From positions 1-40,270 of the IMG/VR virus record IMGVR_UViG_3300037258_000186: a stretch of 40,270 bases of DNA; one strand, written 5' to 3'. Source of the DNA: a virus. Shown here in pieces: positions 4,161 to 26,842 of the stretch. Position 1 is the stretch's first letter; each line of letters begins with the position of its first letter. Made by a program: the position numbers and the translations under genes. Below the pieces are notes generated by a model. It was not told the origin of the DNA. It ran no database searches and worked only from the letters and a program-made list of their open reading frames with translations.

Positions 4161-4388
4161 ATGGATCACGCGGTCAACCGAGCTCCCGTCTCCCATGAGA
4201 TGTCGACCGAGTCCCGCGGCTCCATCCTCCCGGCCGAGCGCGGCTCGATGATCGGCAAGCACGATGCCGAGGGAGTCCCGGGCCAGCCTGTCGGGCTCGA
4301 GGCCCGCAATGCGTTCGCTCTGCCGAGCGATTGCTACGACGATGCCGGGGGCGATGCCACGTCGCACCTCACCGAGGGACGGGCATAG
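4161..4388 (+). CDS. Small hypothetical protein
   Basis: A 75-residue protein with no recognisable domain. It is polar, with several Gly-Ser-Pro stretches and an acidic end (SDCYDDAGGDATSHLTEG). ATG 4161 is the first start after the portal stop. No clear Shine-Dalgarno is present, but a TAGAGT -10 element lies 7 bases upstream, compatible with leaderless translation. It stands between the portal and a conserved small basic protein. It could be a small virion or assembly factor, but nothing in the sequence shows this. Confidence 0.6.
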   Translation: MDHAVNRAPVSHEMSTESRGSILPAERGSMIGKHDAEGVPGQPVGLEARNAFALPSDCYDDAGGDATSHLTEGRA

Positions 4389-4398
4389 GCGGCCGGAA

Positions 4399-4587
4399 GT
4401 GCCCTTCCAATCCGAGAAGCAGCGGCGCTACCTGTGGGCAAACGAGCCGAGGATCGCCGAAGCGTGGAGTCACGGGAGGTCATCGGTCACTGGCAAGCGC
4501 GAATCCGCCAGCCAGCAGGGGAAACGCAAGTCGTCCAAGAGGAGCAAAGGTCGTTCCTCGCGGAAACGTTCACGCGGAGGGAGGTGA
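4399..4587 (+). CDS. Small basic phage protein of the PFQSEKQRRYLWANEP type
   Basis: A 62-residue protein starting at GTG 4399. The first residues, MPFQSEKQRRYLWANEPRIA, match a motif I know from many unrelated phages, usually next to the portal or capsid genes and always of unknown function. The C-terminal half is extremely basic (GKRKSSKRSKGRSSRKRSRGGR contains runs of Lys, Arg and Ser), which suggests nucleic acid binding or packaging into the head. The start is set by the conserved N-terminus, since longer in-frame reading to 4264 would run through the previous gene. Confidence 0.7.
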   Translation: MPFQSEKQRRYLWANEPRIAEAWSHGRSSVTGKRESASQQGKRKSSKRSKGRSSRKRSRGGR

Positions 4588-4593
4588 TTGCTG

Positions 4594-4659
4594 ATGGAGA
4601 GTCAGATCCGCTTCCGTGGCCGCAAGGGCCACAAGCGCCACGGGCGCAAGGGCCGCTGA
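4594..4659 (+). CDS. 21-residue basic peptide with near-perfect ribosome binding site
   Basis: ATG 4594 to TGA 4657-4659 encodes MESQIRFRGRKGHKRHGRKGR, about half Arg, Lys and His. The upstream GGAGGTGATT (4580-4589) is complementary over about ten bases to the 3' end of 16S rRNA and has normal spacing, one of the strongest ribosome binding sites in the window. It has only a 6-bp gap from the preceding basic gene and is followed by a strong hairpin. This supports a real, highly translated peptide even though it is very short. A role in DNA binding in the head is possible but is inference. Confidence 0.55.
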   Translation: MESQIRFRGRKGHKRHGRKGR

Positions 4660-4704
4660 GCCCTCTCGGCGGGCATCGCTGAGCCCGACCGGATTTGCGC
4701 GAGA

Positions 4705-4965: not shown

Positions 4966-5385
4966 ATGGCAAAAGCATCAGGATCGGGAGCGCCGGCCTC
5001 TGTCGCCGAGGGTTTGGGGAACGTTCTCCGTGCCGTCTCCGACACGATGGCCGCGCCTGACGCCGCGCAGATGAAGGTGCCACTCATGCACCTCCAAGCG
5101 ACGGTTCTCGATTTGGTGCACGGTCAGATGAAGGGTCCACAACAGCCGGGCCAGCAGGGCCAGCCCGGTGCACAACCCGCAGGTGGTGGAGCAGCTCCCC
5201 CCGGTGCTCCACCCGGCGGTCCCCCCGGAGGTGGCGGCGCTCTCGGCGGTGGCCTCTCCGGTCTGATGGGTCAGAGCCAGGGCCCGTCGAATGCAACGTC
5301 AGGTGGTGGTCCGTCGCTCTCTGGCATGGACCCTGAGCAAATGCGCCAGATGGCTCTCGTCGGCGCGGATAGCGACCAGTCATGA
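4966..5385 (+). CDS. Gly/Pro-rich protein before scaffold
   Basis: A 139-residue protein. Residues 1-55 look helical (SVAEGLGNVLRAVSDTMAAP, then HLQATVLDLVHGQM). From about 57 it becomes a Gly, Pro and Gln-rich, presumably disordered segment, ending with SGMDPEQMRQMALVGAD. The start abuts the previous stop and the end overlaps the scaffold start by 4 bp (ATGA at 5382). Position just before a scaffold and capsid gene suggests a role in head assembly. I recognise no family. Confidence 0.7.
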   Translation: MAKASGSGAPASVAEGLGNVLRAVSDTMAAPDAAQMKVPLMHLQATVLDLVHGQMKGPQQPGQQGQPGAQPAGGGAAPPGAPPGGPPGGGGALGGGLSGLMGQSQGPSNATSGGGPSLSGMDPEQMRQMALVGADSDQS

Positions 5386-8517: not shown

Positions 8518-9561
8518 ATGGCCGCAAATGGGGTTCTGCCCTTCGCCAATCCGGTCACGACCGACGAGCTGTGGAAGAACCTGCTCTACGACTTGGGCCT
8601 CACGATCCCCGGGTCCAAGGGCGGGCCGATCGAGATGCGGTTCATTCTCAAGCTCCTCGATCAGGGACTGTCGGGCGTCGGCGCGGGCTCCTATGGCACC
8701 GGCGTTGACGGCGTCCAGACGTTCGATGGCACGGCGACCGTTCTCGGCTTGGCGCCGAGTACCGGGGTCTACACCCTGACCCGCGACATCTATCTCGCCG
8801 ATCAGTCCACCATCGCGGCGGCGGCGACCATCAAGACAGCCGGGTTCCGCATCTTCTGCGCGGGCCACCTCTACATCAACGGGACGATTCAGTCGAATGG
8901 GAACGCGTCGGTGGCCAACGCTGCTGGTGGTGCGCTGTCGTACTCAGGCACCATCTCGAACACGACCGTGGGCGAGGCTGGCGCGGCCGGCGGGACTGGC
9001 AACGGATCCGCAGGTACCGCGGCGGGCACCAACGCGCTTGGTGGCGCGGGTGGCGCGGGTGGCGCATCGACGGACACCGCGGGCGCGGGTGGCGCTGTCA
9101 CGGCGCCGGCAGCCACGGTGCAGAACCTGCAGTCACTTCCCAACGCCATCGCGGTGCGTGTCATCGGCACGACGGCGTTCGCTCTGTGTCTCGGTGGCGC
9201 GGGTGGCGGCGCTGGCGGTGGCGACACCACGAACAACAGCGGCGGCGGTGGCGGCGGTGGCGGAATCGTCGGCCTGTACGCGCAGAGCATCTCAGGCACG
9301 GGCAACGTGCAAGCGGTTGGTGGCGTCGGCGGCGCAGCCAACGCGACCGGGAACAGCGCCGGCGGCGGTGGCGGCGGTGGCGGTGCCATCATCTTGGTCT
9401 CGCGCTCGGTCACCAACGTGGCGCCGACAGTCACGGCCGGCGTTGTGGTGATCTCGGGCGTTACGTTCTCCGTGGCCGGCGGCCTCGGCGGCGCCAAGAC
9501 TGGCACCGGCGGTGTCGGTGTCGCAGGTTCCGCTGGCAATATGATCCTCCTCGCGGCATAA
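8518..9561 (+). CDS. Glycine-rich structural protein (fibre or adhesin type)
   Basis: A 347-residue protein. Residues 1-120 look like a folded attachment domain (NPVTTDELWKNLLYDLGLTI). From about 120 to the end it alternates poly-Gly runs of up to 8 residues with short beta strands (GGGGGGGGIVGLYAQ, GGGGGGGGAIILVSR). This resembles glycine-rich adhesin domains of phage fibres that fold as polyglycine II sheets and bind surfaces. It is encoded among head and tail-connector genes, so it may decorate the head or collar. Start ATG 8518 has GAGAGG upstream. The opposite strand shows a 350-codon open frame that is only a GC-rich shadow. Confidence 0.7.
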   Translation: MAANGVLPFANPVTTDELWKNLLYDLGLTIPGSKGGPIEMRFILKLLDQGLSGVGAGSYGTGVDGVQTFDGTATVLGLAPSTGVYTLTRDIYLADQSTIAAAATIKTAGFRIFCAGHLYINGTIQSNGNASVANAAGGALSYSGTISNTTVGEAGAAGGTGNGSAGTAAGTNALGGAGGAGGASTDTAGAGGAVTAPAATVQNLQSLPNAIAVRVIGTTAFALCLGGAGGGAGGGDTTNNSGGGGGGGGIVGLYAQSISGTGNVQAVGGVGGAANATGNSAGGGGGGGGAIILVSRSVTNVAPTVTAGVVVISGVTFSVAGGLGGAKTGTGGVGVAGSAGNMILLAA

Positions 9562-22011: not shown

Positions 22012-22353
22012 ATGGCGCAGAGTGACACCCCGGTATCGGTCGGAACTGGCGCGACGTCGCTGCTCTGGCAGACGTCGACCGGAGTGCCACCGGATCCCGA
22101 GACAACCCTCGCCGGCAATGCCACAGCGCAAATCTTCCGAGCGGGCACGGTCAATGACCCGGTGCCGATCATCATTCAGAACCTCGATGCCACCAACCCG
22201 GTGTTCCTCGGTGGATCCGGGGTGACGTCATCGACTGGAACCAAACTCGTCGCCGGCGCGTCGATCACCCGCAATGTGGTCGGTAACGACTCGGAGTACG
22301 CGATCTCCACGGGTGGGACCGTCTCGGTGTCGGTTGAAGTCGGACGTCAATAG
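22012..22353 (+). CDS. Beta-rich small structural protein
   Basis: A 113-residue protein with an immunoglobulin-like strand pattern: PVSVGTGATSLLW, PVPIIIQNLDATNPVFLGGS, GTKLVAGASITRNVVGNDS, GTVSVSVEVG. Phage head-fibre or decoration proteins show the same order (an equivalent of an IQN plus VxLGGSGV turn). A GGGGGGT purine run lies before the ATG, and a TAACCT element 6 bases upstream could alternatively be a -10 box. It begins the host-interaction region. Function as virion decoration is inferred. Confidence 0.6.
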   Translation: MAQSDTPVSVGTGATSLLWQTSTGVPPDPETTLAGNATAQIFRAGTVNDPVPIIIQNLDATNPVFLGGSGVTSSTGTKLVAGASITRNVVGNDSEYAISTGGTVSVSVEVGRQ

Positions 22354-22362
22354 GAGGTCCAA

Positions 22363-22566
22363 ATGGCCATCCACATTAAGGAGGCGAACCGAGGCAAGTT
22401 CACTGCGTCGGCCAACAAGGCCGGTGAATCGGTTCAGCAGCATGCTTCCTCCGTGCTCTCCAATCCTCGGGCGTCGGCCAAAGAGAAGAAGCGGGCCAAC
22501 TTCGCGCGCAACGCGCGCAAGTGGAACCATCGCGGTAAGCGTAAGTCCAGTCGCGGCCGTCGCTAA
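22363..22566 (+). CDS. Small basic phage protein (HIKEANRGKFTASA type)
   Basis: A 67-residue, very basic protein with an excellent binding site, AGGAGGT, 7 bases before ATG 22363. The sequence AIHIKEANRGKFTASANKAG and a later KEKKRANFARNARKWNHRGK match a widespread small phage protein usually found near structural genes, whose function is unknown. The C-terminus (KRKSSRGRR) suggests nucleic acid contact. The stop is followed directly by the next ATG. Confidence 0.7.
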   Translation: MAIHIKEANRGKFTASANKAGESVQQHASSVLSNPRASAKEKKRANFARNARKWNHRGKRKSSRGRR

Positions 22567-23799
22567 ATGGGTGTCGGTGGCGCTGAGGTAGGTCCCGGCG
22601 TCAGTCCGCCCGACACGGGCGGCGGTGGCGGCGGATCGGGCACGGTCACGTCTGTCTCGGTCAACAGTGCTAACGGCTTTGCGGGCACGGTCGCCAACTC
22701 GACCACGACCCCGGCCATCACGATCTCAACGACGATCACCGGGATCCTCAAGGGCAACGGCACAGCCATCTCCGCGGCGACACCTGGCACCGACTATCCG
22801 GCCACGGGCGTCATTACTGCCGGTGGTCCAACGGGCAGTGGCACGGCTGTGCCTGTCATCACGTACAACGCCAACGGACAGCTCACTGTCGTCACCACGA
22901 CGGCAACGGTCGGCACGGTGGCGGTGGGCGGTGGTGGTTCGCTCGTTCTCGGCGGAACGGCTACGGCACCATCGCTTACTCGGGCCGCTCTTACTGGTGA
23001 CGTCACAGCCTCCGCCGACTCGAACGCGACCACTCTTGTCGCCACGGCGGGTGTTGAGGCCATCATCAGAGCGCAGGGAGTTGGTGCTCCGGTTGTCTTT
23101 ACAGCAGGTGGTACATGGACCCCATCAACGTCGGGACTACAAATCTTTGCCGCCCTCGTTGTTGGTGGAGGCGGCGGAGGTGCGGCAGGGAACACAGGTG
23201 CGAGTAGTGGAGGAGGTGGAGGAGGTGGCGGTGAGGTGCTTCCGTTCTTCTATCTCGGCAACGTCACAACTCCCCAAACTGTCACCATCGGCGCTGGCGG
23301 TGCAGCGGGATCGGTCGGGAGTGCGACGTCCATAGGGTCTCTTGTCACTGCGGCTGGCGGTGGTGCTGGCTCTACTTTTTTTGGTATCGCCGGGAATGGT
23401 GGCGACGCAGGCCCTTCTCAATCAAACGGACAGGGACTTGGTAGTTCGGGTGGTGCGGGCAATAGCACTAGTAGCACGGGCGGGCGTGGGGGATCAGGCA
23501 TCGAACGTTACGGCGCTGGTGGTGGTGGTGGTGGTGGCCCGACTTCGGCAGCGGGAGGCGCAGGTGGTAGCTCAGGGGGGGGCGCAGGTGGGACTGGCGC
23601 ATCTCTTGGCGGCGGCGGCGGTGGTGCTGGTGGTATCGGTGCGAGCGCCGGTCAAAACGGTACGGCGGGCCAAGGTGGTCATGGTGGTGCTGCTGCGGCC
23701 AACACTGGTGGTGGTGGTGGTGGGGGTGGTTGCGGTACTGCGGCTGGTGCGGGTGCTGCAGGTGGTTCGGGATACGTCATCATCTTCCAACTGGCCTAA
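22567..23799 (+). CDS. Tail fibre with glycine-rich tip and shared N-terminal tag
   Basis: A 410-residue fibre. It begins MGVGGAEVGPGVSPP, a peptide shared with the proteins at 24996 and 25425. Residues about 27-80 hold a fibre repeat (GTVTSVSVNSANGFAGTVAN, then TTTPAITIS and ILKGNGTAISAATPGTDY). From about 165 the protein turns into a Gly-rich domain with a conserved core (FTAGGTWTPSTSGLQIFAAL, then VTTPQTVTIGAGG) and poly-Gly loops, ending in GSGYVIIFQLA. This is the glycine-rich adhesin type used by phages to bind hosts. It ends abutting the hydrolase gene. GC content is lower here than in the structural genes, a usual sign of exchanged host-range modules. Confidence 0.8.
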   Translation: MGVGGAEVGPGVSPPDTGGGGGGSGTVTSVSVNSANGFAGTVANSTTTPAITISTTITGILKGNGTAISAATPGTDYPATGVITAGGPTGSGTAVPVITYNANGQLTVVTTTATVGTVAVGGGGSLVLGGTATAPSLTRAALTGDVTASADSNATTLVATAGVEAIIRAQGVGAPVVFTAGGTWTPSTSGLQIFAALVVGGGGGGAAGNTGASSGGGGGGGGEVLPFFYLGNVTTPQTVTIGAGGAAGSVGSATSIGSLVTAAGGGAGSTFFGIAGNGGDAGPSQSNGQGLGSSGGAGNSTSSTGGRGGSGIERYGAGGGGGGGPTSAAGGAGGSSGGGAGGTGASLGGGGGGAGGIGASAGQNGTAGQGGHGGAAAANTGGGGGGGGCGTAAGAGAAGGSGYVIIFQLA

Positions 23800-24996
23800 A
23801 TGGCGGACCACTGCAATGACCCATCTTCACGGGGAGCGTGGCAACTCAGTAGTCCCCATATCCCGTCCATAGGTCAGTTGCTAGTTCCTACGGGTGGCTT
23901 TGGATCGTCCAACATTCGTGGCGTTGCGATACTCGGCCACGGCCTAAACGAGAGTTCATCGGCTCTCGGAGTCCTTGGCGGTCTTGCTACAAACCTCCAA
24001 GCTGACGGCTGGGTCGTTTACGGTTGGCCGTATCCGGAGGACAACTTCTTTCAGGCGGGACTGAACGGTGGCGCCATCCCCAACACGGGAATAGCGCAAG
24101 ACATCAATAACGACGCTGGGAACGGCGCGCGCTACCTAACCACAAATCTTGAATCGTGGGATCACATCAAGATATGGCTGCGCACCGTCATGCCGCAGTT
24201 GCATGGTGCATCGGGCCCGCTTCTCTCTTTGCCTCTCGCCGTGTTCGGGGAGTCATGGGGCGGCTGGCACTCGATCCAGGTTGCACTCAATCGGTCATCG
24301 GACCTTGTTGCATGGGGTGCGCACGTACCTGGCGTTGTTATGTCGGCGTTCATTCCGGCCCTGACAGAACCATACAGTTACGGTGCCCAACCGGCCTACA
24401 ACAGCGGCACTACCTACCTCGCATTCCAGACGGTTAGTTTCAATGGGTTCATCTACATTGCGACTGGCACCACGACCGGCAATGCGCCCACCGGCACTGC
24501 GACCTCTAATGCCTTCTGGACCTACCTGATTGGACCGATCAACACGACCGGAGCCGACGTCAGCACGCTTCAAGGTATCGGCAACGGCAGCGGTGGCGTT
24601 CTCCCGCTATGCGTCGTCGGCTGGGCAAATCCCGACATTATTGCGGAGTCCTACCTCGTTCAGCCGTGGGCCGATACGGCGGCGGGGGGGTACTACGCGG
24701 GCCTCATGACGGAGAACGGGCCCCTGACCGAGGGACACCAGTTCTCCGCTAGCGCCGACGTGCCTTACTACACGGCGTTCTTTACTGGCTCGCTCTCCAC
24801 CAGCTACTCGGCGGGCACAACCTATGGCGCGGGGACGATGGTTACCTACAATGGCTTCATGTACTCGTCAATCGCTGGGTCGACAGGCAATGCACCATCT
24901 GGCACGGCCACCTCCAATGCGTTTTGGACGTACTTCTCAACCCCTCCGTGGTCGTCAACGTATTGCGTCGACCATCTCTGTCCCAAGGCGTTCTAA
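23800..24996 (+). CDS. Alpha/beta-hydrolase fused to two sugar-binding-like modules (candidate depolymerase or esterase)
   Basis: A 398-residue protein. Residues 40-155 follow an alpha/beta-hydrolase: strand plus oxyanion turn GVAILGHGLNESS, a helix, WVVYGWPYP, then the nucleophile elbow LAVFGESWGGW (Ser about 152 in GESWGG). Possible triad partners are Asp279 (WANPDI) and His313 (TEGHQF). Two near-identical segments, about 198-243 and 334-379 (YNSGTTYLAFQTVSFNGFIY and YSAGTTYGAGTMVTYNGFMY, each then TGNAP-GTATSNAFWTY), resemble CBM5/12 carbohydrate-binding modules. One lies between Ser and the candidate Asp, the other near the C-terminus. Placed between two tail proteins, it may be a virion enzyme that trims host surface polymers. 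Substrate unknown; the first codons follow the fibre gene stop directly. Confidence 0.7.
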   Translation: MADHCNDPSSRGAWQLSSPHIPSIGQLLVPTGGFGSSNIRGVAILGHGLNESSSALGVLGGLATNLQADGWVVYGWPYPEDNFFQAGLNGGAIPNTGIAQDINNDAGNGARYLTTNLESWDHIKIWLRTVMPQLHGASGPLLSLPLAVFGESWGGWHSIQVALNRSSDLVAWGAHVPGVVMSAFIPALTEPYSYGAQPAYNSGTTYLAFQTVSFNGFIYIATGTTTGNAPTGTATSNAFWTYLIGPINTTGADVSTLQGIGNGSGGVLPLCVVGWANPDIIAESYLVQPWADTAAGGYYAGLMTENGPLTEGHQFSASADVPYYTAFFTGSLSTSYSAGTTYGAGTMVTYNGFMYSSIAGSTGNAPSGTATSNAFWTYFSTPPWSSTYCVDHLCPKAF

Positions 24997-25415
24997 TGGG
25001 TGTCGGAGGAGCAGAGGTGGGGCCCGGTGTCTCCTCGCCGACGAGTTCGTCACTGCCAGCGGGTGCGGTCACTCAACTCGCCAAGACACCGTCAACGGGC
25101 ACAGACTTCGGGGCAGCGCAGGCCAGTTTCCTCACTTGGACAGCGCCAGACGATGGTGAGATGCACCAAGTCACGATCGCGAGCACCATCGTTGCTGGAG
25201 CAGCCGGGACAACGGGTGGACCAGTTCGGGTTCTCTACACGTCGGGCGGCCAGGGTCTGAACGTCTCGGTCAGCAGCGGGACACTCTCGGCGAATCAAGT
25301 GGCCTCGTCAACCGAATCATTGGCGGTGGACCCGAACACTGTGGTTAATCTCCAACAGGCCAGCGGACTGGTGGCAGGCGCAGCAACGATCTTCTCGTCC
25401 ATCATGGGCGCGTAA
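24996..25415 (+). CDS. Small tail protein with the shared N-terminal tag
   Basis: A 139-residue protein starting at ATG 24996, which overlaps the hydrolase stop (TAATG). It opens MGVGGAEVGPGVSSP, the tag shared with 22567 and 25425. The rest is a compact beta-rich domain (GEMHQVTIASTIVAGAAGTT, then VRVLYTSGGQGLNVSVSSG), the look of a receptor-binding or trimeric knob domain. Like its neighbours it is Ser, Thr and Ala-rich with few charges. Probably a second fibre-type component attached through the tag. Confidence 0.7.
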   Translation: MGVGGAEVGPGVSSPTSSSLPAGAVTQLAKTPSTGTDFGAAQASFLTWTAPDDGEMHQVTIASTIVAGAAGTTGGPVRVLYTSGGQGLNVSVSSGTLSANQVASSTESLAVDPNTVVNLQQASGLVAGAATIFSSIMGA

Positions 25416-25424
25416 GGAGTTCCG

Positions 25425-25973
25425 ATGGGAGTTGGCGGGGCAGAAGTCGGACCAGGGATCTCGACGCCAGCCGGTGCGGGTTCGGGCACCCTCACCGATA
25501 TCACGTCGACGGGCGGCACGGTCACCGTCTCGAACGGGACCGGGCCGGTGGTGAACCTAGAGGTGCCATACCCGGCTTTGACGGACGCAGCGGGCAGCCT
25601 CGCTTTGGACTACGACATCACGACCGCTCTCGCGACATACCTCACAACGGCCTCGCTGGCCGCTGGTACTTGGCTCATCATGCATGGCGCTTATGTCAAC
25701 TACCTTGACGCGACGGCAGCTCTTGAGTTTCAAGCGAACGAGGGGACGGCAACGGCGACTTTCGATGGTCAGAACGCAACGGAAATCGCATCCGCTACAG
25801 CAACCCTGCTTGTACCGATGAGCTTGGCGTTCCGTGCCACAATCACTGTGGCCGGAACCATCGTGTTTCAGGCCAAGGCAAGCACCATAACTGGCACACC
25901 AGTGATCCGGGCGGCGACGTCGGCGTCATCGTTCCCCAACGTCACCGGCTATACGGCGGTGCGAATCAAGTGA
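25425..25973 (+). CDS. Tail protein with the shared N-terminal tag
   Basis: A 182-residue protein; AAGGAG lies 6 bases before ATG 25425. It opens MGVGGAEVGPGISTP, then carries GTLTDITSTGGTVTVSNGTG and PVVNLEVP, the beta linker also seen in the protein at 12341. A C-terminal beta domain (about residues 60-182) includes AGTWLIMHGAYVNYLDATAA and FRATITVAGTIVFQAKAST, resembling TNF-like or knob-type receptor-binding folds of phage tips. The stop overlaps the GTG of the endolysin (GTGA at 25970). Confidence 0.7.
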   Translation: MGVGGAEVGPGISTPAGAGSGTLTDITSTGGTVTVSNGTGPVVNLEVPYPALTDAAGSLALDYDITTALATYLTTASLAAGTWLIMHGAYVNYLDATAALEFQANEGTATATFDGQNATEIASATATLLVPMSLAFRATITVAGTIVFQAKASTITGTPVIRAATSASSFPNVTGYTAVRIK

Positions 25974-26842
25974 CCATCGGCCGCGTCATCGACGTCTCGA
26001 GCGCGCAGCACCCCGGAGGTAACCCCGGCGCCGGCAAGCCGATCGACTGGTCCGCCGTGGCCAAGGCCGGCGTCACGACCGCCATCATCAAAGCCACCCA
26101 AAGCACTACCTACACAAACCCGTGGTTCCATGAGGATCTCGCCGGCGCGCTCGGCGCGGGCCTCGACGTCATGGCGTACCACTTCGCATCGTTCGGCAAT
26201 GTCCAAGCCGAGGTGAATCACTTCGTCTCCGTCGCCGGCCGCCTGGCTCAGTGCCTCGACATCGAGACGTCAGAAAACGTCGTGTGGTCCCGAACCTTCC
26301 TCCAAGCGCTGGGCAAGCCGGCCGACGAGCTCCTCGTCTACGGGTCGGCCTCGAGCCTTCGCTCCGTGTATGCACAGCTCCCGGCGCTGCCGTGGGTGGC
26401 CGCATACCAATCGCACTCGCCCGGGTGGGGTGTGCTCTGGCAGTTCACCTCGACCGGACAGATCCCGGGGATTCCCGCGGCTGTCGACCTGAGCAACTGG
26501 CAGGGTTCAGAGATCCAATATGAGACGCTGTTCGCCACCACGGCGCCACCGATAGGAGAGCTCGAGATGCTTGCACCGACCCCGCAGGGCAAAGGTTTCT
26601 GGACTATCAACGCTGCTGGCGCCATCGTCACGCACGGTGACGCGCAGTACCTCGGCGGTCCAAACACCTCGAACACCGCGCCAGCCGGCCAGCCGCCGGT
26701 GTGGAACGGTCCGCCCAACCTCATCCCTGGCCATGTGGTCGCGTCGATCACCGCGCATCCGCTCGAGCAGGGCTATTGGGTGGAGGACAACGTCGGCAAC
26801 ATCTACGCATACGGTGCGGCCGAGGACTATCCCGTCAACTAA
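25970..26842 (+). CDS. Endolysin: GH25-type muramidase with GYW-type repeats
   Basis: A 290-residue protein starting at GTG 25970, overlapping the previous stop. Residues 5-195 match glycoside hydrolase family 25: GRVIDVSSAQ (Asp8), IDWSAVAKAGVTTAIIKATQ, AYHFASFGN and CLDIET (Asp97, Glu99), where the acidic residues are the expected catalytic set for cleaving the NAM-NAG bond. Residues about 199-229 and 255-287 contain two degenerate repeats (GKGFWTINAAGAIVTHGDAQ and GYWVEDNVGNIYAYGAAEDY). Repeats of this GYW-D-GG-I-A-GDA type are abundant in Acidimicrobiia-like surface proteins, so this part probably binds the wall. No signal peptide; a holin candidate follows. Confidence 0.8.
   Translation: MTIGRVIDVSSAQHPGGNPGAGKPIDWSAVAKAGVTTAIIKATQSTTYTNPWFHEDLAGALGAGLDVMAYHFASFGNVQAEVNHFVSVAGRLAQCLDIETSENVVWSRTFLQALGKPADELLVYGSASSLRSVYAQLPALPWVAAYQSHSPGWGVLWQFTSTGQIPGIPAAVDLSNWQGSEIQYETLFATTAPPIGELEMLAPTPQGKGFWTINAAGAIVTHGDAQYLGGPNTSNTAPAGQPPVWNGPPNLIPGHVVASITAHPLEQGYWVEDNVGNIYAYGAAEDYPVN

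Follow-up and report, generated by a model that had tools for sequence, protein, structure and literature searches.

A conserved N-terminal peptide shared by three fibre proteins, unrelated apart from it, in an uncultured phage and its probable role in docking

Why should three otherwise unrelated proteins of one phage open with the same short peptide? The question is raised by IMG/VR record IMGVR_UViG_3300037258_000186 of an uncultured phage with only distant relatives, which was analysed over its full length of 40,270 nucleotides (40.3 kb, hereafter the window). An earlier inspection of the letters, here called the sequence-only reading, had noticed that the genes starting at 22567, 24996 and 25425 have one N-terminus in common, and had proposed it as a docking tag which attaches exchangeable C-terminal domains to one tail protein. 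Comparison with related phages, in which tags are found family-wide and heads change anchors, supports the N-terminal anchor but not the partners suggested for it. We put the probability that the tag is a docking or anchor peptide at roughly 0.8.

A peptide conserved at the protein level

The three open reading frames and their starts are as previously described (Table 1; genes are named here by their first position in the window). The motif MGVGGAEVGPG[V/I]S begins all three proteins, the N-termini being MGVGGAEVGPGVSPP in 22567, MGVGGAEVGPGVSSP in 24996 and MGVGGAEVGPGISTP in 25425. The tag of 11–13 residues is common to fibre proteins which are indeed unrelated otherwise; behind it they resemble each other no more than shuffled sequence. 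From amino-acid frequencies, the 10-mer would occur by chance at any one start with a probability of ~3e-11, and a six-frame scan of the window allowing up to three substitutions did not find a fourth copy.

Conservation of the tag is at the protein level only. Genes 1 and 3 (22567 and 25425) have no identical codon among the 11 that follow the ATG; 10 of these differences are silent and the other is a V-to-I change, in agreement with the earlier count, and over codons 2–13 there are 12 differences, 11 of which are silent. Genes 2 (24996) and 3 differ in 11 codons, 10 silently, and genes 1 and 2 in 7 of 13, all silently, so that the statement that nearly every codon differs holds for two of the three pairs. 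Identical codons between the pairs number 4, 0 and 1 of 10, compared to 3.9 expected for independent synonymous draws from the phage's own codon usage. Silent sites have thus reached saturation although the residues have stayed constant, so selection acts on the peptide. Over all pairs, identical codons amount to 5 of 30 against ~12 for independent draws, as if identical DNA were avoided.

Recent copying of gene starts, by homologous recombination of 5′ ends and with a functionless peptide as the outcome, could also place one N-terminus on several genes. Such a copy is visible in the related locus L073, where the tag is present on two genes with 60 identical bases and nearly identical preceding bases. 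In the window, however, silent codons differ like independent draws whereas the residues stay, which largely refutes this explanation there; copying may be the origin of the tags but leaves their persistence unexplained, and a functionless peptide is highly improbable. The earlier verdict of selection rather than duplication is therefore upheld as to selection, but its contrast was too sharp. Because the tag and the preceding bases of L073 are visibly copied, tags have probably spread by copying of gene 5′ ends, after which selection would have kept the peptide while silent sites drifted.

There is also a slim chance that the N-terminus serves translation or folding instead of docking, through a codon or RNA constraint or as a signal or leader. 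Its position at the very N-terminus and its Gly-rich, low-complexity composition would suit such a role. However, it is the residues and not the bases that are conserved, and by inspection no signal peptide is present, a charged plus hydrophobic stretch being absent. Moreover, the peptide is genome-specific and restricted to fibres: the GH25 endolysin, the small protein encoded at 22012 (called base here) and the hydrolase between the tagged genes, which was correctly given as tagless and starts MADHCNDPSS, all lack it.

Diverged tags and exchangeable heads in relatives

About 50 related IMG/VR loci were collected using the portal and 15599 as queries. With DNA patterns, the exact tag could not be identified in IMG/VR outside the window; with a relaxed pattern the only real gene start was that of L065, other matches being short or out of context, and 25425 as a direct protein query gave no relatives in IMG/VR or among GenBank phages. 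The tag homologues which the sequence-only reading had suggested looking for are present in diverged form: in ~17 related phage records a diverged tag opens a fibre gene downstream of the homologue of 22012. Every relative with a readable region has a base homologue, followed by a fibre gene starting with a short Gly-rich peptide. The usual pattern includes two bulky hydrophobic residues, the first near position 3 and the second near position 8–10. The closest tag is that of L065 (MPIGGEVVGPGIS / MPIGGEVVGPGISG); further tags are those of L063 (MGFGAGEVGGIS), L064 (MSVGPGAFGPGN), L066 (MPLGTTWGELGTP), L068 (MATGGGAGFGPVLG), L070 (MPIGLGVELFGTI), L073 (MPIGSGGAGFAVGG) and L078 (MAFGGGAAGFGGVS), and MPIGSGGAGFAVG is likewise among the tags directly behind base, while L077, L081 and L082 match the pattern only loosely. 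M-x-[VILFM]-G is found at the start of 9 of 13 genes after base as compared to 7 of 197 other called genes. Behind the tags of the relatives, beta-stalk repeats, collagen-like repeats (Pfam PF01391) or other domains are present.

A second, diverged tag is present in L078. Three further records in which base is located away from 15599 were read afterwards as a later test; behind base, G033 contains three tagged genes (MPIPGTTIGIVAG, MPIGGTTTGWAGG, MPIGGTTGGMAGA), G032 four (MPLPSASIGLASG, MPIGGTTGGMAGG, MPLNGTTIGWAGG, MPIAGTTGGLAGG) and G037 one (MAPFGATGPFAGG). The idea that genomes without base are also without tagged fibres (L071, L072) was rejected; base is located elsewhere in the records, with tagged genes behind it. 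For 26 tags the within-genome distance is 0.41, as compared to 0.76 under label shuffling, and none of 5000 shuffles was as low. Tags thus tend to be genome-specific, which would be expected if they were plugs for one socket.

Heads are combined with different anchors. Over its last 130 residues, 25425 matches the end of L073:17330 at 48% identity (E = 3e-18), a protein with a helical N-terminal module in place of the tag, plus a collagen stalk. The same head is 47% identical to the end of L089:2269-3450, a protein with an unrelated N-terminus of the minor-tail type, and in L094 and L095 a tag and a collagen stretch precede a domain of window gene 8518 (52–54% identity, E = 8e-14 at 52%). Such trading of anchors by head domains, as read from these alignments, speaks for a docking peptide whose cargo can be exchanged. 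In its predicted model the head of 25425 looks like a TNF/C1q domain, most of the top Foldseek matches in the PDB belonging to this family with weak scores (E 0.03–0.12); it has no Pfam match. The AlphaFold2 (AF2) model of 25425 has a mean predicted local distance difference test score (pLDDT) of 52, residues 1–69 being below 50.

The helical module, ~40 residues in length (LxEIYxxII..G.P...LGELL.A..AAI), is carried by L063:16670, L064:16426 and 17045, L073:17330 and 18672, L094:3503/5198/5538, L095 (reverse strand) 4782/7837/8181 and L096:1741/2277, and window 8518 has a similar start. As many as three other fibre proteins of a genome carry it, and so does the gene after the capsid gene (8518 type; L064 and L068 copies). 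It constitutes a second anchor class.

The tagged proteins might sit on the capsid instead of the tail, as head fibres or decoration proteins, and the presence of the helical module both on cassette fibres and on the gene after the capsid gene would fit with this. On the other hand, tagged genes follow other structural genes and precede the endolysin, and receptor-binding proteins of podophages are usually encoded between the structural genes and the endolysin. Docking on the capsid is therefore unlikely.

The candidate socket

In the proposed mechanism the N-terminal 11–13 residues would form a plug by which three different fibre or adhesin proteins attach to the same virion socket. Behind the plug would follow a flexible Gly-rich linker or a beta- or collagen-like stalk, and then an exchangeable head. 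The most likely socket would be base, the small jelly-roll protein encoded just upstream (22012-22353). We infer that the tag binds a virion component, that base may be this component, and that the fibres could be trimeric and bind host receptors.

Divergence of the tag follows that of base (Mantel r = 0.61, p = 2e-4, n = 13), and the correlation survives leave-one-out. The partial r is ~0.58 given 15599, 10635 or 13125, and the correlation also holds given the gene upstream of base. Later segments of the tagged protein correlate with base at r 0.21–0.31 (n = 13), and the first 8 residues alone do so more weakly than the whole tag (r = 0.27). L065 combines the closest tag with the closest base (73% identity), yet its 15599 is only 45% identical. 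In L067, base runs stop-free into a Gly-rich stretch, which is possibly a natural base-fibre fusion cut by the contig end.

The tag could also dock on a virion protein other than base, such as 10635 (568 aa, conserved) or 13125 (adaptor-like), with base as a neighbour or a small fibre. Co-variation of base and tag may reflect linkage of adjacent genes, 13125 resembles podophage structural proteins and would be a natural fibre site, and the relative G001 has two base copies. However, tag distance is not tied to that of 10635 (r = 0.11, not significant) or of 13125 (r = 0.19), the value for 21496 is 0.17, and no tag signal is left for 15599, 10635, 13125 or the gene upstream of base once base is accounted for. 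As for the two docking partners named in the sequence-only reading, 10635 is disfavoured by these values, and 12341 has the same fibre-type beta-stalk unit as the third tagged protein, suggesting another fibre rather than a hub. A socket other than base is possible, if rather doubtful.

Several observations weigh against the plug-and-socket reading with base as the partner. Base adjoins the first tagged gene, so shared inheritance alone can yield the correlation. At 16–17 genomes the tag-base r falls to 0.44–0.50, and later segments of the tagged protein reach 0.24–0.50. The two tags of L078 are not very alike (distance 0.60), in L094 and L095 the first tagged gene is unlike the other tagged genes, and in G032 and G033 the first gene fits the tag pattern of its own genome less well. 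A strict M-x-hydrophobic-G, present in 9 of 17 first genes, was too narrow and was dropped as a family definition. The fold matches of base are unspecific, with ENA and BxpB/ExsF among the first (Z ~7) but tied with unrelated jelly rolls and cupins. We give base about an even chance of being the tag's binding partner.

A single jelly roll is predicted for base by AF2 (pLDDT 79, predicted template modelling score 0.73). Specific kinship of base with ENA/ExsF was considered and dropped, since similar scores are reached by many jelly rolls and cupins unrelated to it; among 15 base members there is no meaningful Pfam match, the resemblance to ENA/ExsF being confined to weak fold matches. A T4 gp10-like domain was not matched in base, 10635 or 12341 in Pfam and PHROGs, although sequence methods could miss such a domain, nor in base or 10635 in PDB profile searches. 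The two base copies of L066 (G001), at 4336-4692 and 5085-5375, are 66–69% and ~41% identical to the window base, one each; the tagged gene behind the divergent copy has a very different tag.

Gene neighbourhood and known docking systems

The window has matches to a portal (PHROG 156/332), a major head protein (PHROG 9953) and a terminase. Gene 13125 resembles podophage structural proteins (PHROG 399; PDB 26fb, E = 8.7e-4; 8jov, E = 0.018), the latter entry being the podophage GP4 portal-tail complex. The phage is likely short-tailed. One relative sits on an Acidimicrobiaceae metagenome bin, which gives a hint of the host only. The order of genes is 15599 (1476 aa), several small genes, 22012, 22363, 22567, 23800, 24996, 25425 and 25970.

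Table 1. Coordinates of the tag copies, the fibre cassette and associated genes in the window.
Feature	Position	Strand	Remarks
Tag copy 1	22567..22605	+	MGVGGAEVGPGVS; position matches diverged tags of relatives
Tag copy 2	24996..25034	+	MGVGGAEVGPGVS; start overlaps hydrolase stop
Tag copy 3	25425..25463	+	MGVGGAEVGPGIS; GGAG ribosome-binding-like sequence upstream
Base, small conserved protein (113 aa)	22012..22353	+	Candidate tag socket; predicted single jelly roll
Small basic protein (67 aa)	22363..22566	+	Between base and first tagged gene
Tagged fibre 1 (410 aa)	22567..23799	+	Tag, Gly linker, GTVTSVSV-type beta stalk, C-terminal Gly-rich domain
Alpha/beta-hydrolase-like protein	23800..24996	+	Two CBM5/12-like stretches; tagless; own N-terminal motif ending in HC
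Tagged protein 2 (139 aa)	24996..25415	+	No family match apart from tag
Tagged fibre 3 (182 aa)	25425..25973	+	Tag, one beta-stalk unit, TNF/C1q-like head at ~residues 52-181
GH25 endolysin	25970..26842	+	Pfam Glyco_hydro_25, E = 2.7e-22; downstream end of fibre cassette
Fibre-like protein	8518..9561	+	Start resembles helical N-terminal module; internal domain behind tags in L094, L095

Tagged fibre 1 matches Pfam Gly_rich_2 (E = 5.6e-5) just short of the family cut-off, and its C-terminal domain is also present on the tagged genes L063:15486 and L078:15286. The small basic protein appears to have moved, its homologues in L027/G023 adjoining the 10635 homologue instead. The cassette hydrolases (window 23800-24996, L065:10313, L066:8352 and L078:17933) have their own N-terminal motif M-x(1-2)-H-C in common, possibly another attachment or modification signal. 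Glycosyltransferase-like genes are located in or beside fibre cassettes (L064:17962, L069:18963, L065:11432, L078:21946, L094:5874 and L095 reverse strand 6613) and might modify collagen-like fibres; the Pfam check, which covered L064:17962 only, gave a glycosyltransferase plus a methyltransferase.

In phages of the K1-5, SP6 and KP34 types, N-terminal peptides of 7 or 11 residues dock receptor-binding proteins (Latka et al. 2019, PMC6872550). There, as here, a short conserved N-terminal peptide with hydrophobic residues (MALxxLV in KP34) stands in for an entire anchor domain; it differs from one phage group to the next and goes with broken synteny around the fibre genes, and K1E belongs with K1-5 and SP6 in this respect. 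The conserved peptide followed by diverged sequence, on fibres of one phage group, is also found in the window and its relatives. More than one receptor-binding protein per virion is present in those phages, to which correspond, at the level of genes, the three tagged genes of the window and the 3 and 4 of two relatives. The proteins displayed in those phages, however, are capsule-degrading enzymes, and the adaptor or anchor protein to which they attach has a T4 gp10-like domain. In the window a single peptide recurs on three proteins of one genome, with as many as four tagged ones per relative; what lies behind it is Gly-rich, collagen-like or TNF/C1q-like, and its candidate socket, a small jelly-roll protein, gave no T4 gp10-like match.

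A second parallel is provided by Bacillus ENA and the ExsF/BclA exosporium, in which collagen-like fibres insert a short N-terminal peptide into a cleft between the subunits of a trimeric beta-sandwich, and in which several fibres, with collagen stalk and C1q/TNF-like head, follow one docking principle (PMC11952670). These are bacterial spore proteins, however, and the fold likeness is weak and unspecific, so the comparison is an analogy only. Tentatively, one jelly-roll base could take up to four fibres through an N-terminal hook, as ExsF/ENA trimers do on spores, with plug and socket co-evolving in each phage while stalks and heads are traded between anchors and phage families.

The trimeric fibres of adenoviruses dock on the penton base through a short conserved motif at their N-terminus, and viruses with two fibre types keep the motif on both, although virus and proteins are unrelated to those described here.

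Short docking peptides are thus already known from K1-5/SP6 and KP34, and what the comparison of sequences points to here is a variant with more copies and other cargo. It suggests a sequence rule for finding receptor-binding proteins, namely to search directly behind the base gene and for repeats of the first 13 residues of the neighbour, which is useful in a large group of uncultured phages where ordinary family searches yield little. A minimal docking peptide like those of a few enterobacterial podophages would recur in a distant group, now with a candidate socket named. If base is indeed the socket, the two would form a compact peptide-and-receptor pair for multi-fibre display.

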